Virus record (IMG/VR): IMGVR_UViG_3300020175_000044
Location: 1 to 26,163 of that record
Length of the DNA: 26,163 bases
Source of the DNA: a virus
Strand: one strand, 5' to 3'
The position numbers were made by a program, and so were the translations under genes. The notes beneath the pieces are model-generated. The model did no database searches. It was not told the DNA's origin and was given only the letters and a program-made list of their open reading frames with translations. Positions 1,625 to 12,741 of the stretch are shown in pieces (position 1 is the stretch's first letter; each line of letters opens with the position of its first letter).

Positions 1625-2221
1625 GTGAAAATAAAATTATTTGATGAAAAGGAATGTCGAGAAGCAGTTAATCATATTTTTAATATGAAAAATTCCGGTG
1701 ATTTAAAACATGAAAATGAACATCGGTTTTCAACTTTAAATAAAAACAGTTATGGGTGTTACTCTGATCCTGTTTTCAACTCTCTCGCTTTAAAAGCATT
1801 GCCTCAGATGGAAGAGTCATGTGGATTAAAATTATATCCAACTTATACTTACACTCGTCTGTATTTACCTGGATATGCTTTGGTTCCACATTTAGATAGA
1901 CCTGCGTGTGAATTTTCGTCTACTGTTACTATTGGTTATGGAGATAGAGAATCTCCTTGGGAAATTTATATTGAGAACGATGATCTAGATGGCGTTGAGT
2001 ATATATTATATCCTGGCGAAGGTGTAATATACGAAGGCAGAAAATATCATCATTGGCGTTTACCATTAGACAAAGGTTGGCAGATACAAACCTTTGTCCA
2101 CTACATTGAAATTGAAGGAGAAGTTTATTACGATGTACTAGAACGAAATCCTAATTTCGATTTTTCGGAACCCTTCCACGATTTTAAATATGATCCCAGC
2201 AAAAAATATTTAATGACTTAA
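1625..2221 (+). CDS. Fe(II)/2-oxoglutarate oxygenase-like protein, antisense to the operon
   Basis: 198 residues and the only gene on the plus strand. It has a jelly-roll oxygenase pattern: YTRLYLPGYALVPHLDRP gives the HxD iron pair (H89, D91), followed by an LYPGEGVIYEG strand and a distal His (H142 or H143). A 2-oxoglutarate-binding basic residue is less clear (K150 is possible). It starts with GTG; AAGAG lies seven bases upstream. Codons are notably AT-rich. The stop codon overlaps the regA stop tail to tail by 4 bp, with no terminator between them. Read-through from regA would therefore make antisense RNA to this gene. Substrate unknown. The family acts on proteins, nucleic acids or small molecules using Fe(II), O2 and 2-oxoglutarate. 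Confidence 0.7.
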   Translation: MKIKLFDEKECREAVNHIFNMKNSGDLKHENEHRFSTLNKNSYGCYSDPVFNSLALKALPQMEESCGLKLYPTYTYTRLYLPGYALVPHLDRPACEFSSTVTIGYGDRESPWEIYIENDDLDGVEYILYPGEGVIYEGRKYHHWRLPLDKGWQIQTFVHYIEIEGEVYYDVLERNPNFDFSEPFHDFKYDPSKKYLMT

Positions 2222-2637
2222 AATTTATTGCCTATATTATATTTCGGACAAAGTTCCCATTCGTCTTTTTCTTTATGAGAAATGATTTTAATTTGTCTTA
2301 AAGGTGCACACTCAGAAATTTGAAGACGATCAACTACTTTCACTAATCCCCAATCACATAACAACGTTGTTATTGTATTTCTTCTATGCAAATCATTCAA
2401 CATTAAATTAGTTTTTTTACCGTCAAGCAAAAATAACTCTTTGAAATGAACAATGAAGTATCTTCCTTGTTTATGTAAAACATGACACGATTGAAACAAT
2501 TTTTTATCGACCCTTGATGCTACACCAATTCGGGTTAGGGTTTCTCGTATTTTTAAAAAATCATCTGGTTGATCTATAATAATCTCAACCATATCTTTTG
2601 GCACCCAGTCTACTACTACATTATCTTGTTGTTCCAC
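2218..2637 (-). CDS. regA: RegA translational repressor
   Basis: This is the phage mRNA-binding repressor that shuts down translation of early genes, including clamp and clamp-loader genes in T4. Strongly T4-like segments include DDFLKIRETLTRIGVAS, FQSCHVLHKQGRYFIVHFKE and CDWGLVKVV. Order after gp62 and before gp43 is as in T4. Start choice is uncertain. The GTG used here overlaps the gp62 stop by 17 bases and has AGGTGG six bases upstream, giving 139 residues. An internal ATG (2592) matches the T4 start exactly (MVEI versus MIEI) and gives 124 residues, close to T4's 122, but has no good ribosome-binding site. The 15-residue N-terminal extension is therefore tentative. Confidence 0.93.
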   Translation of the reverse strand: MEQQDNVVVDWVPKDMVEIIIDQPDDFLKIRETLTRIGVASRVDKKLFQSCHVLHKQGRYFIVHFKELFLLDGKKTNLMLNDLHRRNTITTLLCDWGLVKVVDRLQISECAPLRQIKIISHKEKDEWELCPKYNIGNKF

Positions 2638-2998
2638 CTTTACCCACCTTTTTCAATAAAATATCTAACTGATTATCAGACAGTAAAGGAAGAACTTGTC
2701 GTGCTTTCTCCTCATTATAACCATAATATAGTTTGATAACATTCACATTATCATCGACTTCTGGTTTCTGCCACTTAGAAAAACGCTTTCTTTTTCTAAG
2801 TGTATTTATAAAAAAATCGAATTGTAATTTATTTGCAACAGAATGATTGGTGTTCATCTCATTAGCAAGAAGAACCGTGTCTTTAAAATAAGATAAAGAT
2901 CGATTAACAAGAAACGAATTATAACTGCTTTCATTTTCTTCTGTCATGATATTGTCTTTTGTATAATTTATAGCATTAACAAACTCGAATGGATTCAT
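2621..2998 (-). CDS. 62: Clamp loader small subunit gp62
   Basis: At 125 residues it is shorter than T4 gp62 (187). In T4, one gp62 with four gp44 forms the ATPase that loads the gp45 clamp. Identification rests on position (before regA in the clamp-loader cluster) and the segment RKRKRFSKWQKP...VIKLYYGYNEEKA (about residues 68-100). That segment matches T4's RGKRYGKWAK...IIKLLAKRY pattern. The ATG overlaps the TGA of the upstream oxygenase gene (ATGA). In T4, gp44 and gp62 are directly adjacent and translationally coupled; here an oxygenase gene separates them. The coding sequence contains a 12-bp perfect hairpin preceded by a TATAAATA box. Confidence 0.82.
   Translation of the reverse strand: MNPFEFVNAINYTKDNIMTEENESSYNSFLVNRSLSYFKDTVLLANEMNTNHSVANKLQFDFFINTLRKRKRFSKWQKPEVDDNVNVIKLYYGYNEEKARQVLPLLSDNQLDILLKKVGKGGTTR
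2772..2802 (-). repeat. 12-bp perfect inverted repeat inside gp62, next to a TATAAATA box
   Basis: Arms at 2772-2783 and 2791-2802 (CACTTAGAAAAA and its exact complement) enclose a 7-base loop. In the minus-strand message it forms a long stem within codons for the NTLRKRKRFSKW region. A TATAAATA (2810..2803) immediately precedes it on the same strand. It is not followed by a T-tract, so it is not a standard terminator. Confidence 0.7.
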
Positions 2999-3561
2999 TT
3001 AGAAGGTCTCCTTTTACCACGATCTGTAACGTTCATAGCAACAGCAATACGTTCTGCACCACTGATTATATTAGGCATTACACCATGTTGTAACCTTGGA
3101 TTGAAAATGATGAGATCGTTATCTTCTGGTTCAACTTCCATATCGATGGTAGGGAAAAATATAGATCCGCATCCTACATCTGCTTTCAAATAAAACACAG
3201 CCGAGTATTCCCATACAGGTCCATGACCATGAGGACCACAAGACTCACCGTCAGTGTATATTAACCCCCACATTGACGGATCAGTTTTAAGTTTTCTTTC
3301 TCCAAGAATATCTAAACGTCTTGCGAACCGATTTAAGGTATAATCGAACTCATGCCTGAGCGGATCTAAAAGATTTTCTCCGGTATGACCCGGTTGATAA
3401 ACTCTGCAATATGCTCTTTCTAACCTTATAGCAGTATCTTTCTGATCGTAAGACCCACCTTCTCGTATCAACTTCATCCAATAATCAGGTTCGTCTAAGT
3501 AGCATTTAGTAACTGCTAGAAAATTAGTTCCGTCATCTACTAAAATTTCCCCTCTGTCCAT
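2995..3561 (-). CDS. Fe(II)/2-oxoglutarate oxygenase-like protein inserted between gp44 and gp62
   Basis: 188 residues. The C-terminal half shows the fold expected of the putative 2OG-Fe(II) oxygenase family with an HxH-type N-terminal ligand motif. H111 and H113 lie in CGPHGHGPVWEYSAVFYL, followed by a G-S-I-F-F strand (about 132-136), the NDLIIFNPRLQHGV strand with distal His H159, and R171 as candidate 2-oxoglutarate ligand in GAERIAVAMNV. Its ATG directly abuts the gp44 stop (TAA-ATG). Its TGA overlaps the gp62 start (ATGA). It is thus translationally embedded in the clamp-loader operon and should be made in step with the loader subunits. Substrate unknown. Confidence 0.75.
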   Translation of the reverse strand: MDRGEILVDDGTNFLAVTKCYLDEPDYWMKLIREGGSYDQKDTAIRLERAYCRVYQPGHTGENLLDPLRHEFDYTLNRFARRLDILGERKLKTDPSMWGLIYTDGESCGPHGHGPVWEYSAVFYLKADVGCGSIFFPTIDMEVEPEDNDLIIFNPRLQHGVMPNIISGAERIAVAMNVTDRGKRRPSK

Positions 3562-4500
3562 TTAATTAAACTCCACGTTGGTCATCAATTCTGTCATACA
3601 TGCTACCATATTTAGTTCATGATCAGCAACAAATGCATTTTTGTATTGATAATCTGCAAGAATTAATACTACATGAGGTATACTAGATGGATTTACACGA
3701 TCATACATACTATCGTAAATTGCGCGGAACACAACTGATGCGTCAACATCAGAATTATTTACTACCCAAGATCGCATTTTCTTAAAGTCTTTTTCTTTAA
3801 GAGACGAAAACAGACCGTCATAAGATCCTGTTGCATCTGACTTTTGCGGTAACAACAGAGTACCACTTGTAGAATATCTTTGAACTTCATTGAGTACTCT
3901 TCTCCAATCAGGTGCATGTTTTAATATCAGATTAGCAACAGGTTCGATATCATTACACGTCACATTCTCTTTGGTAAGAATGCTCAAGACACGCTTCAAC
4001 ATCTGTTCACATAGAGGCTGCATATCTTTTTTGGAAGTATTAAATTCATATACACCGCACCGAGAATGGAGCGGTTCAATGATTCTGTTCTTAAAATTAC
4101 ATGTGAGTATGAATCGACAGTTACTTGAAAACTCTTCGATGAACCCACGCAAAGCAGGTTGTGTCGATTGAGGATTCAAGTAATCTGCCTCATCAAGAAT
4201 GACACATTTTTTATTACTCGTAAGAGAAATAGAAGAGGCAAATCGTTTGATCTTACCTCGTAGTGTGTCGATGTTACCTTCTTCTGAACCATTGATTACT
4301 ATGTAATCCATGTCTAACTCATCACACAGTGCACGTGCAACCGTAGTCTTACCAAGACCAGCAGTTCCAGTGAACAACATATTAGTCAGTTCTCCTTTGG
4401 CAATTGCCTCAGAGAAAGTTTTTTGAAGGGTTTTCGGCAGAATAGTATCGTCTATCTTAGACGGACGATATTTCTCTACCCATAAGAATTCTTTTGACAT
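3562..4500 (-). CDS. 44: Clamp loader large subunit gp44 (AAA+ ATPase)
   Basis: 312 residues, against 319 in T4. It is the AAA+ ATPase of the clamp loader, opening the gp45 ring on primed DNA. The N-terminal loader motif FLWVEKYRPSKIDD is followed by Walker A GTAGLGKTT (45-53), Walker B ILDEAD (101-106) and the SRC arginine-finger motif (146-148). GGAG lies upstream of the ATG. No convincing promoter lies in the 60-base AT-rich gap before it, so it is probably read from the gp45 promoter. Confidence 0.97.
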   Translation of the reverse strand: MSKEFLWVEKYRPSKIDDTILPKTLQKTFSEAIAKGELTNMLFTGTAGLGKTTVARALCDELDMDYIVINGSEEGNIDTLRGKIKRFASSISLTSNKKCVILDEADYLNPQSTQPALRGFIEEFSSNCRFILTCNFKNRIIEPLHSRCGVYEFNTSKKDMQPLCEQMLKRVLSILTKENVTCNDIEPVANLILKHAPDWRRVLNEVQRYSTSGTLLLPQKSDATGSYDGLFSSLKEKDFKKMRSWVVNNSDVDASVVFRAIYDSMYDRVNPSSIPHVVLILADYQYKNAFVADHELNMVACMTELMTNVEFN

Positions 4501-4558
4501 TTGTTACTCCATACATAATAAAAAAATAATAATAATTCAAGTGGAGACAAATGTAAAA

Positions 4559-4786
4559 TTATCCTCCTGCTACTTCTGGCGCAAGTGCTTCGAGAGTTGA
4601 TGCTTCACCAGAAACATTACCTTGTTCTTGCTCTACCAACTGGATCAACGCAATACACTGATCTCTAAGCTGTCCAATCGTGCTTAACTCTTCACCTCGA
4701 AAAGCGCCACGCGCTGTCATAGTATCAACTACTGCAACTGTACTACGTGTAATTCGATTAGCAAGGTCCATCATTTCTTCGTTCAT
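4559..4786 (-). CDS. Conserved-looking small protein between gp45 and gp44 (75 aa), unknown
   Basis: 75 residues from the ATG at 4786, preceded by GGAG with six bases' spacing, one base after the gp45 stop. A longer in-frame start ten codons upstream would overlap gp45 and has poorer support. The sequence is predicted helical, with a distinctive RGAFRGEELSTIGQLRDQC segment at about residues 27-45, then ALIQLVEQEQ and a flexible acidic tail. It is not T4 RpbA, which lies on the other side of gp45. Placement inside the clamp/clamp-loader operon suggests a replisome or transcription accessory role, but no family is recognised. Confidence 0.75.
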   Translation of the reverse strand: MNEEMMDLANRITRSTVAVVDTMTARGAFRGEELSTIGQLRDQCIALIQLVEQEQGNVSGEASTLEALAPEVAGG

Positions 4787-4787
4787 A

Positions 4788-5462
4788 TTAGTCTCCATAA
4801 GTACTAGTTTTTTCAAGTGCTACCCAATATTCAATCTTGGTTTGTTTATTAATAAAATGCGAGATCAAAGATGAGGAAATAGCAACATCATAATCACCTT
4901 CAATCATTTTTAAATTATTAATATTAAATACAAAATTAAAATTACTATGTTTGTATGTCCCTTCGACATCAACAGTATAACCGTTTGAAGTGCTATCACT
5001 GTTATCATTTACTGTTAGACATACAACATTATCTATACAAGTTACACTGACTTCATTATGCCCAAGAACGGAAGACGCTCGGCGAACTTTTGCCAGAGTC
5101 TCTCGATCTAAGGTAAAAGTCACATCAGCATCTCGCATGACCACTTCCTTACTAGGAGAGGTGAGGATATCGATATCAGAATAATAATATTTAATTCGAG
5201 TCCTACCTACTGAATCTCCAATAAGAACATATTCATCCTCGAAAGATAGCGTAGGATTATCAACCAGTCCCATAGCAGAAATGAACTCGTTTAGATCAAA
5301 GATCCCAAAGGTCTTTGGAAATTCCACATCTAGTATAGATTTACTGACAACGTTTTTTGCCTCAGAAATAGTCTTAATAACGTTGCCGCTTTCTATAACA
5401 ATGTTGGGGTTAATTGAAGCATAGTTTTTAAGAACCTGCATAGTTTGTTCTGTAATCATCAC
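4788..5462 (-). CDS. 45: Sliding clamp gp45
   Basis: 224 residues, against 228 in T4. It is a trimeric ring that tethers gp43 to DNA and also activates late transcription through gp55. Support comes from size, position between gp46 and gp44, and the clamp-like segments FDLNEFISAMGLVDNPTLSFEDEY and the C-terminal FNFVFNINNLKMIEGDY strand pair. The frame opens with GTG followed directly by ATG. GAGG lies eight bases before the GTG and eleven before the ATG, so the start is uncertain by one codon. A perfect-consensus sigma70 promoter gives a leader of about 20 nt. Confidence 0.93.
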   Translation of the reverse strand: MMITEQTMQVLKNYASINPNIVIESGNVIKTISEAKNVVSKSILDVEFPKTFGIFDLNEFISAMGLVDNPTLSFEDEYVLIGDSVGRTRIKYYYSDIDILTSPSKEVVMRDADVTFTLDRETLAKVRRASSVLGHNEVSVTCIDNVVCLTVNDNSDSTSNGYTVDVEGTYKHSNFNFVFNINNLKMIEGDYDVAISSSLISHFINKQTKIEYWVALEKTSTYGD

Positions 5463-5488
5463 GTAAGTATCCTCATATGTTTAAAGTA

Positions 5489-5517
5489 ATTATACATCAT
5501 TATTTTCATCGTGTCAA
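5489..5517 (-). promoter_or_regulatory. Perfect-consensus sigma70 promoter for gp45
   Basis: TTGACA at 5517..5512, a 17-nt spacer and TATAAT at 5494..5489. The -35 box overlaps the last codons of the upstream oxygenase gene. The predicted start is near 5482. It probably drives the whole gp45 - 75 aa - gp44 - oxygenase - gp62 - regA operon. Confidence 0.88.
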
Positions 5518-6143
5518 GCTAATTGTGGTCCCCATACCCATCCCACCAAAGAACGTCTAGTTCCCTTAGTTACTGGGGTAACTCGATGAGTTGTAGTGCT
5601 TGGAAATATAAGTATACTCCCGACTTTATTAAGAGAAGTCATAGTACGAATTACTGGTTTACCTTCCCTATCTAATTTTGATAGCATTTGAAATTTACCA
5701 CCTTCAAATGAATCTCTATCATTCAATACAATTGAAAAACTTAACTTTCTTAATTTAGAAACATTAGAGGGTTCAGCATCTCGATGCCAAGAGTAATGAC
5801 CACCAATATTATATTCTCCATATTGAAAAAATTCTGTCTCGTTTATTCGGTACTTCCAATGTTTTTTATTTTGTTGATATAAGACATCTGATATTTTTTC
5901 TTCTAATTTATGGTGATAAAACCACCAAAGTTCAGTGTCTCTTATACCTTGTTGCTTTTGCACATTAGAATCATCTGTGCCAATTAATCCAGGTGTATAT
6001 TTCCCCTTAGACTTAGCAAAGTTACTTACACCTACACACTCTTTCTTACTTAGAACAGATGGTATCACAACATAATCGGGCACTTTTACAACTCGTGCTT
6101 TAGATAACTCAGTAGTGTCTAGACTAGAACCTATTTTATTCAT
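5514..6143 (-). CDS. Fe(II)/2-oxoglutarate oxygenase, prolyl-hydroxylase/PKHD type
   Basis: 209 residues, and the clearest oxygenase of the four in the window. After an N-terminal segment VVIPSVLSKKECVGVSNFAK come FQYGEYNIGGHYSWHRDAEP (iron ligands H120 and D122), the strand LSFSIVLND and EGGKFQML. Distal H186 lies in PSTTTHRVTPV and R196/R197 are candidates for binding 2-oxoglutarate. This layout is the PKHD/prolyl-4-hydroxylase class, which typically hydroxylates proteins. The ATG overlaps the gp46 TGA (ATGA), coupling it to the recombination nuclease genes. Its last codons carry the -35 of the gp45 promoter. Substrate unknown; phage structural or host proteins are possible. Confidence 0.86.
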   Translation of the reverse strand: MNKIGSSLDTTELSKARVVKVPDYVVIPSVLSKKECVGVSNFAKSKGKYTPGLIGTDDSNVQKQQGIRDTELWWFYHHKLEEKISDVLYQQNKKHWKYRINETEFFQYGEYNIGGHYSWHRDAEPSNVSKLRKLSFSIVLNDRDSFEGGKFQMLSKLDREGKPVIRTMTSLNKVGSILIFPSTTTHRVTPVTKGTRRSLVGWVWGPQLA

Positions 6144-7846
6144 ACTGCTTTGCTAAAATTCTTTTCTTTTATGAATTCGATCTTGCGATCAAACTTATTG
6201 TCGAGCAGTTCACCTTTATGAGATATTACAAAAACATTTGTATCATCATCTAAGGTATCTAATATCTTCAGCAAATTATCTACCCCATCAGCATCAAGAG
6301 ATGAGTCAAAGGTTTCATCGAGGATCAATAGATTGGTTGCGATGCTGTTTTTCATCTTAGCAATCTGTCTCCATGTGAACAGAAGCGCCAAATCGATACG
6401 TTGTTTCTCACCTTCACTAAAAGATGAGTAAGAAAATACATCACGGTGCCGCGAGCGAATAGTTTCATTGAAACCCTCGTCCAGATCGAAGTGAACGTAA
6501 AAGTCAAGAACCTGAAGATACTGGTTAGTCAACTTATTGATCACTGGCAAGTACTGCTTGATGATCTTGGTTTTGATACCGGTATCTTTGAGGAGTTCTG
6601 TGATAACGTTATTATATTCTCTTTGAGTCGCGTATTCTAGTTTGACATCAACGAGAGTTTCTCTTTTACTTTCTTCACTTGAGAGAGTATCTCGTGCTTC
6701 CTGCAAGCTATGTACACCTGTTTGAAGTTCGGATAACTCACCCTGTAAAGAAGTAATTCTTCGCTGGGTCCATGTGATTTTTTCTTTGATGGTGTTGATC
6801 TGATTACGCTGTTCAACTTCTGCATCAATAGACTCTTGGATACTGTGTTTCTCATTTGTCAACTTTCCTATTTGGTGTTCACACTGTTGTCTTGCTTCTT
6901 CGAGTTCATCCCACTTGTCTTTGGCGTTCTGTACCTTATCCAATCGGAAGGAGGGTTCGATGGTTTGGTCACAGGTGGGGCAGTCTTCGTTGTCTTCATA
7001 AAATAGAATCTCTTTGTTAGATGCTTTCTGTTTAGCATTAAATTGAAAGACATACTTACCCATCTCATTGATCTTAGAATCTAATGATGACTGCTTGGTT
7101 TGAAGGTCAGATAAAACAGTATCTTCCCAACTAGTTACTTGGGTGTTTAGGCGGGCCAACTCTTCTTCTTCTTGAGCAATCAAGTCTAACTTTTCTTGCC
7201 TAGCAGTTTCAGAGATTTTAGTTAGTTGAGAGATGTGCTTCTTCTGAGATTCAATCTTAGTATCACTCATCTCCAACTTATACGAATTGTCCATCAAGGA
7301 TTGTTTCAGGGTAGAAACTTTTTCTTTTAGGACTGTGTTCATTTTAGAGAACACATTAATATCTAGGAGGTCTTCGATAACGTCACGTCGATGTTGTGCG
7401 GGGAGCTGCATAAAAGGAATGAAACTGCTGCTCCCCAACACAACGATCTGGTGAAACGTTTTGTGGTTCAACTTGAGGATGTTCTGTTCTAGAATCTTTT
7501 GATATTCTTTAGCATGTGAGTCCTGATTGATCATGGTACCGTCTTGCCATATCTCAAAAAGAGCAGGTTTCAGACCCCGAACGATCTTATACTCCTGACC
7601 TAATGCGACAAACTCTACTTCGACCACACAGTCTTTATTGTTTACACTGTTTAGTAGTTGAGGTTTGTTTACATTACGATGTGCTTTACCGAACAAGGCA
7701 AAGGATAATGCGTCTAGCAAAGTAGACTTACCAGATCCATTCGCACCCACAACCAGTGTCGATTTACTCGACGAGAAATCGATTTCAGTAAAGGTGTTGC
7801 CAGTGGATAAAAAGTTTCGGTAACGAATTTTATTAAAATTTATCAT
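6140..7846 (-). CDS. 46: Recombination endonuclease subunit gp46 (Rad50-like)
   Basis: 568 residues, close to T4 gp46 (560). It is the SMC-type ATPase that pairs with gp47 to resect DNA ends and degrade host DNA. Walker A GANGSGKST is at 34-42, followed by long coiled-coil arms around a CPTC zinc hook (289-292). Near the C-terminus are the ABC signature SFSEGEKQR and Walker B LLILDETFDSSLD. The ATG overlaps the gp47 stop (ATGA). A second promoter for it may lie inside gp47. Confidence 0.97.
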   Translation of the reverse strand: MINFNKIRYRNFLSTGNTFTEIDFSSSKSTLVVGANGSGKSTLLDALSFALFGKAHRNVNKPQLLNSVNNKDCVVEVEFVALGQEYKIVRGLKPALFEIWQDGTMINQDSHAKEYQKILEQNILKLNHKTFHQIVVLGSSSFIPFMQLPAQHRRDVIEDLLDINVFSKMNTVLKEKVSTLKQSLMDNSYKLEMSDTKIESQKKHISQLTKISETARQEKLDLIAQEEEELARLNTQVTSWEDTVLSDLQTKQSSLDSKINEMGKYVFQFNAKQKASNKEILFYEDNEDCPTCDQTIEPSFRLDKVQNAKDKWDELEEARQQCEHQIGKLTNEKHSIQESIDAEVEQRNQINTIKEKITWTQRRITSLQGELSELQTGVHSLQEARDTLSSEESKRETLVDVKLEYATQREYNNVITELLKDTGIKTKIIKQYLPVINKLTNQYLQVLDFYVHFDLDEGFNETIRSRHRDVFSYSSFSEGEKQRIDLALLFTWRQIAKMKNSIATNLLILDETFDSSLDADGVDNLLKILDTLDDDTNVFVISHKGELLDNKFDRKIEFIKEKNFSKAV

Positions 7847-8904
7847 ACGATCTCTAGTGACTGTGCCTCTATCATGAGTTCTCGAACCATAGACTTGATC
7901 TTGTCTTTACTGAGATCAGTATCTACCGCATCGATATAACTATACAACAATTCGTCAGTGCTGTCAACACTTATTTTTGAATCCTCAACATTAGTTCCAA
8001 CAAAGTCTTGAAAGTTTTCTGCTATCTGTAATCCGTGAACCTTCTGAAAGTTTACTCGGTCCAAGAACTTCTCAAACTCTGCTGGTTTGGTCTTGTTGAC
8101 AACAATAACTTTGACAAACTTATCGTCCAGTTTTCTTACGTCAATAAGGTTAGGGTCTTTTTCTTTATCATTGTATAAAATCTTTTCAAATATGGTGATA
8201 GGATTTTCAACAGAAGTCAGTTCACGTGTATCCGTATCAAGTACATGAAAGTATTTGCGATCATTACAATCGGACCACATGAACTCCATCTGAGACCCAA
8301 GATAATGAATATTACCTATGGTAGATTTGGTATGAAAGTGTCCAGAGAGAACCATGTCGAACCTACGAAACAACCCAGCATCCATACCATCATGGCAAGG
8401 TATTCCTGCTTGCATCTCAAACCCAGACAGTTCTAAGTGTGCACCCAGAATATCTGCTTTGCAAGTATTGATGAAGTACTTTATTTTCTCTTCATTCTCA
8501 TTGTTGATCCAAGGGATCAAAGCAAAGTTCAAACCATCATAGTTCATGACAGTAGGTTCTTCTATGATGTTTACCTCGTTCATATAGTGACCAAGGAGTT
8601 CTTTCAAAGCATTTAGGTTGTTTGTGTTTTTATAATAACAATCATGATTACCTGGAATAATATCCATGTGTATGCCACGAACGCGCAACTCATCAAGAAA
8701 TATGCGCCTATTGTGATTAAGTGCTTTGAAATTAATCGAAGTACGGTTTTCATAATAGTCTCCAAGATGTACTATCTTTTTTATTCCATGCTCTTCTAGG
8801 TACGGAAAGAAAACATCACGATAGAATTTTTCCTGATAATCCATAAAGATTTCAGAACTCTGTCTTACACCAGCATGCGTATCGTTTAGTATGGCTACCT
8901 TCAT
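7843..8904 (-). CDS. 47: Recombination endonuclease subunit gp47 (Mre11-like)
   Basis: A two-metal calcineurin-like phosphoesterase, the nuclease subunit of the gp46/47 complex. All metal-binding motifs are visible in the 353-residue protein: NDTHAG (D8, H10), HLGDYYENR (D49), GNHD (N86-D88), GAHLEL (H156) and GHFHT (H189, H191). The ATG at 8904 is two bases after the gp55 stop and has GGTGGG six bases upstream. An alternative TTG two codons earlier is less likely. It is read from the gp55 promoter. Confidence 0.97.
   Translation of the reverse strand: MKVAILNDTHAGVRQSSEIFMDYQEKFYRDVFFPYLEEHGIKKIVHLGDYYENRTSINFKALNHNRRIFLDELRVRGIHMDIIPGNHDCYYKNTNNLNALKELLGHYMNEVNIIEEPTVMNYDGLNFALIPWINNENEEKIKYFINTCKADILGAHLELSGFEMQAGIPCHDGMDAGLFRRFDMVLSGHFHTKSTIGNIHYLGSQMEFMWSDCNDRKYFHVLDTDTRELTSVENPITIFEKILYNDKEKDPNLIDVRKLDDKFVKVIVVNKTKPAEFEKFLDRVNFQKVHGLQIAENFQDFVGTNVEDSKISVDSTDELLYSYIDAVDTDLSKDKIKSMVRELMIEAQSLEIV
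7939..7967 (-). promoter_or_regulatory. Possible internal sigma70 promoter for gp46
   Basis: TTGACA at 7967..7962, a 17-nt spacer and TATAGT at 7944..7939, an 11-of-12 consensus match. It lies inside gp47, with a predicted start near 7932, about 85 bases before the gp46 ATG. It overlaps coding sequence, so chance cannot be excluded. Confidence 0.45.
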
Positions 8905-8906
8905 AA

Positions 8907-9500
8907 TCAACCCACCAAAAATTCAGAGAGGTCTGAATCCACATGCCTAGTTCTTTTTTTACGTTCTTTTTTTACGTAGTCTTTTACCGCATTATCACTT
9001 TCTTTTACACTGTCTATACGCTTTCGTAGATCATCTACAAATGCTTGAGTCTGTCGAGCAGCAGGGTTGCCCTCAAATTCTTCTGTCATCAATTGCTCTA
9101 TACCAGATTCAGTCAGATACTTGATCTTGATATCTTGTTGCTTCTTCTCCTTCTGAATACGCCGTAGGAACGCATACCATGAGATCTGAGTGAAGTATGC
9201 GAACGCATTGGGTTTCCCTGTGCGCGTAGCAGTCTCAAGGTTATAGTTCTCAATTGCTTTCAAGCAGTTCTCTACTGCATCCATTACCATTTCTTCACGA
9301 TAGGTGTAGCGAACGAAGTTTGCTTTGTGTGAAAGACCTTCTGAAATTTTCAGAAAGCACCGAGCAATGTAATCAGTAACCACAGGTTTTGGTTCTCCTG
9401 CTGCAACAGCATCGTTAGAAGATTTTACGTAATCCACAACTGCTTGGGAAAAATCTGCGTTGTTTACGTAGTGCGGTTTGTCTTTTGGTTTGATAGTCAT
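8907..9500 (-). CDS. 55: Late-transcription sigma factor gp55
   Basis: A small divergent sigma70-family factor that directs host RNA polymerase to T4-type late promoters together with gp33 and the gp45 clamp. In the 197-residue protein, a region-2-like stretch FVRYTYREEMVMDAVENCLKAI is followed by NAFAYFTQISWYAFLRRIQKEKKQQ (about residues 100-125). That second stretch is the characteristic gp55 core and -10-recognition segment. The C-terminus DSDLSEFLVG resembles the acidic-hydrophobic clamp-binding tail of gp55. The ATG at 9500 has GAGAG five bases upstream; an upstream GTG four codons earlier is less likely. TATAAATA boxes in the virion half of the window are its probable targets. Confidence 0.93.
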   Translation of the reverse strand: MTIKPKDKPHYVNNADFSQAVVDYVKSSNDAVAAGEPKPVVTDYIARCFLKISEGLSHKANFVRYTYREEMVMDAVENCLKAIENYNLETATRTGKPNAFAYFTQISWYAFLRRIQKEKKQQDIKIKYLTESGIEQLMTEEFEGNPAARQTQAFVDDLRKRIDSVKESDNAVKDYVKKERKKRTRHVDSDLSEFLVG

Positions 9501-9525
9501 AGTTACTCTCACGTGAAATAGATAT

Positions 9526-9553
9526 ATTATACACTAAAAATAAATGTTGTCAA
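9526..9553 (-). promoter_or_regulatory. Sigma70 promoter for gp55 with palindromic -35 region
   Basis: TTGACA at 9553..9548, a 16-nt spacer and TATAAT at 9531..9526. The predicted start near 9519 gives a leader of about 19 nt. The -35 box is one arm of an inverted repeat, TGTCAA-4-TTGACA (9563..9548 on the minus strand). It sits in the 103-base gap after the 150-aa gene, where no terminator is visible. Confidence 0.82.
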
Positions 9554-9615
9554 GGGGTTGACAGAAGAAGGCAAATGTGTTACCCTAGAGCTTCACTCGT
9601 AAGGAGAACAGTATA

Positions 9616-10068
9616 CTAGTGAAAAGTAGTATCAGGAGGAACAAAATTAATAATATTTGACTTTGGTTTTGATTTCTTTTCTTTAGGTTCTTTTTTTGAT
9701 TCGATAAGATTTTCTAATATACTTTTCAGTTTAATTGCTTCTCTTTTATTATGCTCTTTAATCCTATCCTCAGAAAGATCTTTCATATCTGATACTGCGC
9801 TGATATATTGAATAGCAAGTAAATCATTTGGTTGTGCACTCGCCACTATACTTTTTGAATCAAGTATAATATAGTCAGTTGGTTTTTCTAAATACAAGAA
9901 CCATGGTTTAAACATATAAACCCTTTCATTATTTTCAAAAATAGTTGTTTCAATAACCATAGCATTACGAATAATAATATTATTATCTTCGTTTTCCCAA
10001 TCCATAACTTCGCAAATTAATTCTTCACCTGTGGTTAATTTTAATTGATATGTTGGAAAAGTGCTCAT
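9616..10068 (-). CDS. Unknown protein with Sm-like N-terminal strand pattern (150 aa)
   Basis: The N-terminal region, YQLKLTTGEELICEVMDW to IIIRNAMVIE (about residues 7-41), has the short-strand pattern and TGEE-turn seen in Sm/LSm-like barrels. A hydrophobic strand region YMFKPWFLYLEK (about 51-62) follows. After it come a helical region (about 78-122), a lysine-rich linker KKEPKEKKSKPKS and a short tail FVPPDTTFH. The ATG overlaps the UvsW TGA (ATGA). The position between UvsW and gp55 suggests a nucleic-acid-related role. The Sm-like assignment is an inference from pattern, not a recognised family match. Confidence 0.75.
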   Translation of the reverse strand: MSTFPTYQLKLTTGEELICEVMDWENEDNNIIIRNAMVIETTIFENNERVYMFKPWFLYLEKPTDYIILDSKSIVASAQPNDLLAIQYISAVSDMKDLSEDRIKEHNKREAIKLKSILENLIESKKEPKEKKSKPKSNIINFVPPDTTFH

Positions 10069-11537
10069 ATATCTACTTCCACCAGTTTATAATTGAATTG
10101 CTCACTCTTATATATCTTTATTCTTTCTGCACAATGTCTCATAGTAAAATTTGCTTTACCTTGATACCGGAGGTCATCTGCAATGTCGTAAAGTTTTGTA
10201 GTCCTGCTATCATCTGACACTCTGAGTCCCCGTCCAATGGACTGTAACACCCTGATTTGCGATTTGCTGGGAGATGCGAAGATGATATTATGGATATTCC
10301 GTATATTAATTCCAGTAGAAAAAGTCCCGAGAGAAGCAAGAACAATACTGTTGGTTTGTTTCTCGACAATACCTCGTACTGCTTCCCTATCACTTGTCTT
10401 AGTTTCCCCGCTAACATAAAAAAGTTTCCTGCCTTCTTCTATTTTATCCTGAATCAATTCTTTCAGAACCTTACCGTGTTTGTCCACAAGGTTGAATAGA
10501 ACCAGAGTATTACCTTCCAATGATAACGTCAGATTCCTAATAAACAAATTTCTTTTCTTATAGCTCACCAGAAAATCTATTTCTTCTTGATAGGTTGCCT
10601 TTTCAACAGTCTTGCAATACTCTTCTTTATACTTCAGCAATAGTATGTCAATATTGAGAGGTGCCAATTGTTTTGCTTTTTGTAGTACTGCTGTGGTGGT
10701 CACCCGTTTCACAGGACCAAACAACCCCTCTAACACCATCTTGTTGGTTTCAGTTCCATCCAAGGTTCCAGTAGTACCGAAACGATACTCAGCATTAACT
10801 GCTTTGTTCATTATACTTGATAAAGATTTTGCCTTGAAACCATGACACTCGTCTCCGAAGATTGCTCCGAAGTTTTCAAACCACTTAGGAGGTAGTCTGT
10901 GTATAGATTGCCACGTGGTAATCACTACTCGTTTGCCAGTATTTTTTTCTTTACCAGAATAGATCAGATGACAATTGGTGTTGGTGTCAAATCCATAGGA
11001 CTCGAAGTCAGATACCATTTGCTGGACTAGACCCGTAGTAGGAACGATAACAAGAATATCTTTGTCGTAACTATCAAAATAGTATCTCAACAAAAGATAG
11101 ATTATCATGGACTTACCAGAACCTGTCGGAGACAGTAAAACGCCTCTCTTGTGCTCTAAGGCGTGTGTAAAGGCATCGTACTGATAGTCACGAGGTGCAA
11201 ACGGCAGACCTAACTGTGAGATCCAAGACATGGTTTTTAAATGGTTGAGTTTGTTTTTCTCGTGTGGAAAACCATAACTGCTTTCAAGATACTCAACAAC
11301 GTATCCTCTTCTCTTCGCAAATGTTTTGATTGCATCATACAACCCAGCATTTATTTCTCCGTTCATACTATTGAACAGACGAATCTTACCGTCCCAAACT
11401 CTCCGCTTGACTGCTGGCATATACTTAGCACCCGGCACTTCGAAACAGAAGTAATCGGATAACTCTTGTGCAACAGAACTAGCACAGTTGACTTTCAACA
11501 TACTATAATCTTTGAGTTTTAGTTCAATGGTGTCCAT
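10065..11537 (-). CDS. uvsW: UvsW-type superfamily 2 DNA/RNA helicase
   Basis: 490 residues, close to T4 UvsW (about 500). It unwinds R-loops and branched recombination intermediates and helps switch origin-dependent to recombination-dependent replication. Visible motifs are the Q-motif-like RDYQYDA (116-122), Walker A SPTGSGKS (136-143), motif II GDECH (228-232), motif III GTTGTL (254-259) and the C-terminal motif VI QSIGRGLR. The N-terminal domain (about 1-100) includes the KRRVWDGKIRLF segment typical of UvsW. Its ATG overlaps the stop of the upstream oxygenase gene (TAATG). Confidence 0.96.
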   Translation of the reverse strand: MDTIELKLKDYSMLKVNCASSVAQELSDYFCFEVPGAKYMPAVKRRVWDGKIRLFNSMNGEINAGLYDAIKTFAKRRGYVVEYLESSYGFPHEKNKLNHLKTMSWISQLGLPFAPRDYQYDAFTHALEHKRGVLLSPTGSGKSMIIYLLLRYYFDSYDKDILVIVPTTGLVQQMVSDFESYGFDTNTNCHLIYSGKEKNTGKRVVITTWQSIHRLPPKWFENFGAIFGDECHGFKAKSLSSIMNKAVNAEYRFGTTGTLDGTETNKMVLEGLFGPVKRVTTTAVLQKAKQLAPLNIDILLLKYKEEYCKTVEKATYQEEIDFLVSYKKRNLFIRNLTLSLEGNTLVLFNLVDKHGKVLKELIQDKIEEGRKLFYVSGETKTSDREAVRGIVEKQTNSIVLASLGTFSTGINIRNIHNIIFASPSKSQIRVLQSIGRGLRVSDDSRTTKLYDIADDLRYQGKANFTMRHCAERIKIYKSEQFNYKLVEVDI

Positions 11538-12298
11538 TACAATATATTCACTTTTCGAAATCCAAAAACAGGCACACCATTTTTATCTGTATTATGTTTA
11601 TAGTCGTTATAGTTTCTATTTCCGCCTATATGATAACTAACTGTTCGCCGCAAGTTGTTAGGGGAGACTTCTCTTTGTGTAACACTATGCCATGCCCATG
11701 GCAAATTTGCCCAGAAAATACCTGTGTTAAATTCATACGGTATTTTTTTGATAGCGTCTGTTGGCGATGATGTTAATAAAAGATCACCGGATTCTTTTAA
11801 GTTATCAGTCACTTCCCTGAAATATATTATTCCAGAAATTAATTTATTGGACATATCTAAATGCCACCCCTTTGCGTTTCCATGAGACAAAATTATTTGG
11901 TCTTTTATACTGGTCGATGCTTTCCAAACATCATCAAAAGGAGTGGTGGATTTATTAAATAAACATAAATCATTTGTAGGATACACTTCATTTTTTCGAA
12001 GGTTTGCTTCTTCACCGTAAGCATTGACAACATCTTTGTTAAACTTGTTTATTAAAAATTCAACGAGTTCAGGAGATTTGAATGCTTCGTGTATAGACGA
12101 GAATTCGAATTCGTCATATTTTGATGTATTAATTTGTATTTTACCATACTCAGGAACCCCAGAGGTTTCGGCATACTTAGATAAAATTTTAGATTCTGAT
12201 ATTGATCGTGCGGTACTTTCCGGAAGGATATTTTTTATCACCACATGCTTCCAAGGAAGGTGATATATTTCTGCGTCATTAAGATTTATTGATATCAT
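11537..12298 (-). CDS. Fe(II)/2-oxoglutarate oxygenase-like protein between uvsY and uvsW
   Basis: 253 residues with the iron triad laid out clearly. H146 and D148 lie in KGWHLDMSNKLISGIIYF, the distal H204 in WANLPWAWHSVTQRE, and candidate 2-oxoglutarate arginines R217/R218 in NNLRRTVSYHI. This resembles the 2OG-Fe(II) proteins common in marine phages, in which a Trp/Asn-rich strand precedes the distal His. Start and stop overlap the uvsY stop (ATGA) and uvsW start (TAATG), so it is fully embedded in the recombination operon. Its codons are AT-rich relative to uvsY and uvsW. Substrate unknown; protein, nucleotide and sugar targets all remain open. Confidence 0.8.
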   Translation of the reverse strand: MISINLNDAEIYHLPWKHVVIKNILPESTARSISESKILSKYAETSGVPEYGKIQINTSKYDEFEFSSIHEAFKSPELVEFLINKFNKDVVNAYGEEANLRKNEVYPTNDLCLFNKSTTPFDDVWKASTSIKDQIILSHGNAKGWHLDMSNKLISGIIYFREVTDNLKESGDLLLTSSPTDAIKKIPYEFNTGIFWANLPWAWHSVTQREVSPNNLRRTVSYHIGGNRNYNDYKHNTDKNGVPVFGFRKVNIL

Positions 12299-12741
12299 CA
12301 GAACCCTGCTTCAAATTGTTTCCATCGTATAATATTACCGATTGTCTGGTGCCTCCATTTGAGGTTCTCAACAATTTCTTTCAAAGTATCTATACAAGTT
12401 TTTAGGTACTCGATTCTTGCTTCGCTTGCTACGAGTTCTGGGTCTGCTTCGATGTAGTGTTCCATCTCACCTTTCAGTATTTTGAGACCATTGAAAGGAT
12501 CCGGTTCCCAACCTAACTCAATTACCTCCTCATACGGCATCTTACCTTGATACCACAACCACTTCGACTTCATCAAATCTTTCTGTTTGAATTCTGCTTG
12601 TTTCAGTTTTAGTTTAGTGTTGGATAGTATTCCAAGATATTTTGCGTGTAACTCTGGGGTGCATCTTGATGACTCGTCAATTGACGATGGATCGATTCTA
12701 CAATCAACTTGCCACTCGGCAAGGATGTTTTCTAAATTCAT
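12298..12741 (-). CDS. uvsY: Recombination mediator UvsY
   Basis: 147 residues, against 137 in T4. In T4, UvsY loads the UvsX recombinase on single-stranded DNA covered with gp32. The protein is all-helical. The helix LKLKQAEFKQKDLMKSKWLWYQGKM (about 46-70) contains the conserved length-and-Tyr pattern. The C-terminus IGNIIRWKQFEAGF matches the T4 ending (...FEAGK). Position directly beside the uvsW block supports it. A sigma70 promoter with extended -10 lies just upstream, inside the end of the tail gene. Confidence 0.93.
   Translation of the reverse strand: MNLENILAEWQVDCRIDPSSIDESSRCTPELHAKYLGILSNTKLKLKQAEFKQKDLMKSKWLWYQGKMPYEEVIELGWEPDPFNGLKILKGEMEHYIEADPELVASEARIEYLKTCIDTLKEIVENLKWRHQTIGNIIRWKQFEAGF

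Follow-up and report, generated by a model that had tools for sequence, protein, structure and literature searches.

Four genes for Fe(II)/2-oxoglutarate (2OG) oxygenase-like proteins, here termed P1 to P4, lie among the replication and recombination genes of the IMG/VR virus record IMGVR_UViG_3300020175_000044, and the question raised by this locus is whether their position indicates what they act upon. The window analysed was the complete 26,163-base record. The original prediction was that open reading frames (ORFs) of 198, 188, 209 and 253 amino acids (aa) encode four such proteins at core-gene junctions, and that their close coupling to the neighbouring genes might point to modification of replication proteins or DNA. 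The four ORFs were present where predicted, iron-ligand motifs (HxD or HxH ... H) were located in all four proteins (Table 1) and their description as genes of Fe(II)/2OG oxygenase type placed at junctions of core genes was right; the functional reading was not borne out. It is instead likely that the four belong separately to the Fe(II)/2OG oxygenase superfamily, that each is carried as a one-gene cassette in a hypervariable cargo slot of a marine T4-like phage of Kyanoviridae type, and that they probably hydroxylate a protein or small metabolite.

P2 and P3 were placed in the superfamily by profile matches. P3 matched PF13640 above its cut-off (E 5.6e-15, 56.5 bits) and P2 matched PF13759 (E 1.7e-6, 28.8 bits against a gathering cut-off of 27) as well as PHROG 81 (E 8.8e-17). 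P3 also resembled the PKHD-type hydroxylase PiuC/YbiX, matching NF003974 at E 1.8e-16 and PiuC structures weakly, but fell under the curated cut-offs, including that of NF003974, and is not PiuC itself.

The PF13640 match of P4 was under the cut-off of 27 (E 6.6e-4, 21.0 bits). A tblastn search identified weak bacterial relatives, including an Azospirillum protein (WP_109085362) that is annotated as a 2OG oxygenase, lies beside a lasso-peptide gene and is itself just under the PF13640 cut-off. A profile of the bacterial family built without P4 picked out P4 (E 1.8e-14) from about 4,900 ORFs, and the HxD, distal His and RR of P4 aligned with those of its relatives. The PFPH/PWKH..VI and IPYxxN motifs are also shared, while P4 is about 26% identical, shorter in a core loop and phage-borne. 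P4 therefore appears, as judged by these alignments, to be a phage branch of an uncharacterised bacterial 2OG family, which is a new assignment. Neighbours of the bacterial relatives are methyltransferase, sulfotransferase, TauD-type or lasso-peptide genes (including lasso-peptide B2) and not DNA-metabolism genes. There was no match to P4 in phage records even at E 10, viral contigs gave only identical copies, a search with the degenerate pattern PWAWHSV gave no further relative, and hhalign comparison with the P3 family was not significant. Searches of PDB sequences with phmmer gave nothing useful for P2 or P4, and no closer functional kin were found for either.

P1 had zero Pfam matches and was assigned to PHROG 2954 (E 4.1e-36). 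A viral-contig scan for its relatives gave at least 568 encoding stretches among the matches listed, of which 80 were kept and 45 aligned. PHROG 2954 was matched by all 45 members and PF13640 by two. The AlphaFold2 model built from this alignment (predicted local distance difference test, pLDDT, 83.5; predicted template modelling score 0.80) has the double-stranded beta-helix fold, and its top Foldseek matches were 2OG oxygenases. The best PDB match was 4iw3, the Pseudomonas putida prolyl-4-hydroxylase with EF-Tu, followed by PHD2, a Dictyostelium PHD and the chlorella-virus prolyl hydroxylase vCPH, all with probability 1.00. P1 shares with these proteins its fold and the HxD...H order (template modelling scores about 0.55–0.68) at only 10–16% identity. 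H89, D91, R92, C95 and W112 are invariant in the 44 rows with a letter at those columns and H143-W144-R145 in 45/45 members, so that the iron triad is kept throughout the family. The usual 2OG anchor of the superfamily, an Arg or Lys on the last core strand, is replaced by Gln155 in 44/44 members, and the invariant Arg145 stands two residues past the distal His, giving an HxDR...HWR signature. With the triad invariant and Gln in place of Arg/Lys, the co-substrate site is unusual while the iron site is kept. When the P1 alignment was compared with P3 by profile, the sole match was to the additional 2OG domain of one long member and was disregarded for P1; searching PDB sequences with the P1 family by hmmsearch was uninformative. 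Overall, P1 (prolyl-4-hydroxylase/PHD) and P3 (PKHD type) are most like protein hydroxylases.

To determine what occupies the junctions in related phages, 160 viral-contig loci around gp44 and UvsW were surveyed, with 12 pairs on one contig counted once per junction. Core genes and oxygenases were labelled, and ORFs of at least 110 aa were taken as cargo; the counts include the window, and the relatives are those closest to the query and a non-random sample. In the window, the oxygenase ORFs are flanked as hsp20–P1–regA, gp44–P2–gp62, gp46–P3–gp45 and uvsY–P4–uvsW. The uvsY–uvsW junction was occupied in 16 of 80 loci (10 with a 2OG gene), gp44–gp62 in 36 of 70 (5), gp46–gp45 in 14 of 67 (5), gp47–gp46 in 8 of 81 (2) and regA–hsp20 in 32 of 54 (2, plus 16 with a JmjC-like cupin), and gp62–regA in none of 65. 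Other cargo identified by Pfam comprised dCMP deaminases, an exoribonuclease family, IMP dehydrogenase, glutaredoxin, tryptophan halogenase, FAD oxidoreductase, redoxin, UDP-glucose dehydrogenase, PEP carboxykinase, S-adenosylmethionine synthetase and Mom. The occupied core-gene junctions are hypervariable, interchangeable cargo slots. The JmjC_2/cupin-like protein in P1's junction elsewhere (L015:21722-22261; also, for example, in contigs L039, L054 and L080; PF08007 E 5.7e-6 in phage C48C1) is possibly another oxygenase class in that slot.

The clearest cassette was P4. Locus L098 has UvsY and UvsW proteins 99.3 and 98.4% identical to those of the window (85–89% at the DNA level) and has no P4; its empty junction reads ...GGATTC-TAGTG-GACACT... 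against ...GGGTTC-TGATG [P4] TAATG-GACACC... in the window. The junctions differ solely by one ORF, with one-base stop/start overlaps either side. This is presence and absence at a precise site between close relatives, as for a moron or cargo gene, and it may reflect either gain in the window's lineage or loss in L098. Beside UvsW, the 'methylamine utilization'-type gene (9616-10068 in the window) is only 56% identical in L098 despite the 98–99% identity of UvsW and UvsY, and is possibly another replaced cassette.

Slots also exchange oxygenase families. At gp46–gp45, contigs L091 and L054 have gp46 81–83% identical to that of the window (in L054 over an 89-aa C-terminal piece only), and the next gene is P3-like at only 32% identity in the former and a P1-family member in the latter. 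P3's family lies at uvsY–uvsW or gp44–gp62 in other phages, with its cyanophage relatives between uvsY and uvsW. In Pelagibacter phage HTVC008M, a PF13640 oxygenase and a GIY-YIG-type protein share the gp44–gp62 junction, and additional oxygenases lie between gp47 and gp46 and before gp45. Since one junction holds different 2OG families and one family several junctions, the families swap between slots. The GIY-YIG-type (T5orf172) protein beside the HTVC008M 2OG gene (L017:14933-15391) could, as a homing-type nuclease, help to move cargo into this junction.

Several observations weigh against this explanation. In related phages, the closest relatives of P2 and P3 occupy the same junctions, with P2 relatives at gp44–gp62 in L039 and L054. 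On a tree of 61 oxygenases, poorly resolved and used for label clustering only, junction labels required 21 changes compared to 30.6 when shuffled, with none of 200 shuffles as low; this clustering indicates some position-specific inheritance. The single-sequence AlphaFold2 model of P4 was unsuccessful, with a pLDDT of 34. Finally, with an invariant Gln and HWR motif in place of the last-strand Arg/Lys, the co-substrate of the P1 family could differ.

Under the cassette explanation, each gene would have been acquired, presumably by recombination, as a single-gene cassette between conserved phage genes. Translation of P2, P3 and P4 would be coupled to that of the genes upstream, and that of P1 would be independent; every product would be a small, soluble Fe(II) oxygenase working in trans. 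All four probably use Fe(II) and O2, with 2OG also used by P2–P4 and possibly bound by P1, and the target hydroxylated during infection would be either a protein, of the host or the phage, or a small metabolite. Placement in a slot would provide expression and couple translation to the operon, and need not point to a replisome substrate.

Under an alternative reading, one or more of the four would hydroxylate phage DNA or proteins of the replisome or of recombination, and would for this reason be encoded next to the target; this is improbable. The start/stop overlaps said to enforce co-translation are real for P2, P3 and P4, at 4 nucleotides for P2/gp62 and gp46/P3 and 1 nucleotide for uvsY/P4 and P4/uvsW. 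P1 is on the opposite strand, tail-to-tail with regA, and is therefore not co-translated with the replication genes, and P3 and gp45 are separated by a 51-nucleotide gap containing most of a perfect sigma-70 consensus. Overlaps are likewise present at gp55/gp47, gp47/gp46, the 'methylamine' gene/uvsW and gp62/regA; as core genes overlap one another equally, overlaps were ruled out as a mark of special coupling. A few related phages do have P2- and P3-like genes at the same junction, a 2OG gene lies between uvsY and uvsW in cyanophages and the window phage alike, and the best PDB match of P1 acts on a translation factor. However, in most relatives the same junctions are empty or hold metabolic genes of unrelated kinds, a near-identical sister cleanly lacks P4, 2OG families exchange junctions and P1 is outside the operon. 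None of P1–P4 matched the AlkB (PF13532), TET/JBP (PF12851) or Oxygenase-NA (PF09859) models at E<=1. Nothing was found that favours a replisome or DNA substrate for P1–P4.

It was also considered whether the enzymes matter mainly by drawing down 2OG or altering nitrogen signalling in the host. Sullivan et al. 2010 (PMC3037559) proposed this for cyanophages, and it is in keeping with the many such genes per genome in marine phages. This too is unlikely: the great diversity of the subfamilies suggests several substrates and not a single bulk reaction, the NtcA argument applies only to cyanobacterial hosts, and 2OG binding by the P1 family may be atypical.

Both PHROG 2954 and PHROG 3531 carry the name ferrochelatase. 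Under this name, PHROG 2954 has been reported to be enriched in seasonal marine viruses and to partner 2OG oxygenases (PMC11561400, PMC9599517), and the literature search found no paper contradicting the naming of either family. Sullivan et al. 2010 (PMC3037559) also list a 'ferrochelatase domain' protein, T4-GC 615 ('Hyp. with ferrochelatase domain'), which would correspond to PHROG 2954 as judged from name and size alone. P1 is a member of this family by sequence, and the family often adjoins 2OG genes, but the model and motifs of P1 are those of a 2OG-type oxygenase fold. That P1 is a real ferrochelatase inserting iron into haem, as the PHROG names and the two papers would have it, is very improbable given its size of about 200 aa and zero Pfam matches, the 0/45 family members matching Pfam ferrochelatase (PF00762) at E<=1, a prolyl-hydroxylase fold with no ferrochelatase among the 50 best Foldseek PDB matches, the invariant HxD and distal His, and a longer PHROG 3531 member that also bears a Pfam 2OG domain. 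Among predicted viral proteins resembling the P1 model, one phage protein was labelled 'Ferrochelatase' and others prolyl hydroxylase. The long 'ferrochelatase' of cyanophage ACG-2014f (L012:4869-5957, PHROG 3531) is a P1-type domain fused to a second, PF13640 2OG domain, and HTVC008M carries five tandem oxygenase-like genes beside neck-protein genes (L007:11962-14835), one of them, of the P1 family, labelled ferrochelatase. Among isolates, HTVC023P also has a P1 homologue, gp67. Because P1 belongs to it, the PHROG 2954/3531 family is probably an oxygenase family and its name likely a misannotation. More tentatively, the marine-virus family may be a distinct prolyl-hydroxylase-fold oxygenase clade whose substrate is a host translation factor or phage protein.

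Multiple 2OG oxygenases were, as predicted, already known from marine T4-like phages, including at uvsY–uvsW and gp44–gp62. They were found in 14 of 16 cyanophages, where DNA repair or 2OG modulation was suggested (PMC3037559), and phage S-SCSM1 has 24 such genes (PMC9602691), so several per genome are ordinary. P2 and P3 belong by profile with these oxygenases (PF13640, PF13759, PF05721; PHROG 61, 81), several divergent copies per genome are likewise typical, and 2OG genes occupy uvsY–uvsW in cyanophages and gp44–gp62 in HTVC008M. The window differs in that P3 is at gp46–gp45 rather than uvsY–uvsW, in that identity is only about 30%, and in that four slots are filled in one contig of its lineage. 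What is new is the empty-site and slot-swapping evidence for precise cassettes, together with the probable misannotation of PHROG 2954/3531.

The gene order of the window is that of Kyanoviridae such as P-SSM3 and phage C48C1. On the minus strand it runs gp23, a 175-aa protein, uvsY, P4, uvsW, the 'methylamine utilization'-type protein, gp55, gp47, gp46, P3, gp45, an 85-aa protein, gp44, P2, gp62 and regA, followed by P1 on the other strand and then hsp20. The consensus sites ahead of gp45 and gp55 suggest separate early transcription units.

Table 1. Oxygenase genes, neighbouring core genes and consensus promoter sites in the window
Feature	Position	Strand	Description
P1	1625..2221	+	198 aa; 2OG-oxygenase-fold protein of PHROG 2954/3531; H89xD91, H143, invariant R92, R145, Q155
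P2, 2OG-Fe(II) oxygenase, PF13759/TIGR02466-like	2995..3561	-	188 aa; H111xH113, H159, R171
P3, PKHD/prolyl-hydroxylase-type 2OG-Fe(II) oxygenase	5514..6143	-	209 aa; PF13640; H120xD122, H186, R196
P4, divergent 2OG-Fe(II) oxygenase	11537..12298	-	253 aa; H146xD148, H204, R217/R218; exact cassette between uvsY and uvsW
regA translational repressor	2218..2637	-	PF01818 E 8e-40; tail-to-tail 4-nucleotide overlap with P1
gp62 clamp-loader subunit	2621..2998	-	PF16790 E 1.2e-14; 4-nucleotide ATGA overlap with P2 stop
gp44 clamp-loader ATPase	3562..4500	-	68% identity to C48C1 clamp loader; stop directly abuts P2 start
gp45 sliding clamp	4788..5462	-	PHROG 223 E 1.1e-64
Sigma-70 consensus TTGACA-17-TATAAT, perfect	5489..5517	-	between P3 and gp45; consensus match only
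gp46 SbcC-like nuclease subunit	6140..7846	-	order as in P-SSM3, C48C1; 4-nucleotide overlap with P3 start
Second perfect TTGACA/TATAAT site	9526..9553	-	ahead of gp55
UvsW helicase	10065..11537	-	48% identity to P-SSM3 UvsW; ATG shares one base with P4 stop (TAATG)
UvsY recombination mediator	12298..12741	-	position and order as in P-SSM3, C48C1; stop shares one base with P4 ATG (TGATG)

For the annotation of marine viruses, PHROG 2954/3531 represents a specific, checkable and probable misannotation, and if the P1 family is such a hydroxylase clade, published haem-related readings would need revision. For these phages more broadly, adjacency to the replisome is a property of the cargo slots and no evidence of function, which removes the guilt-by-association argument for the oxygenases found there.

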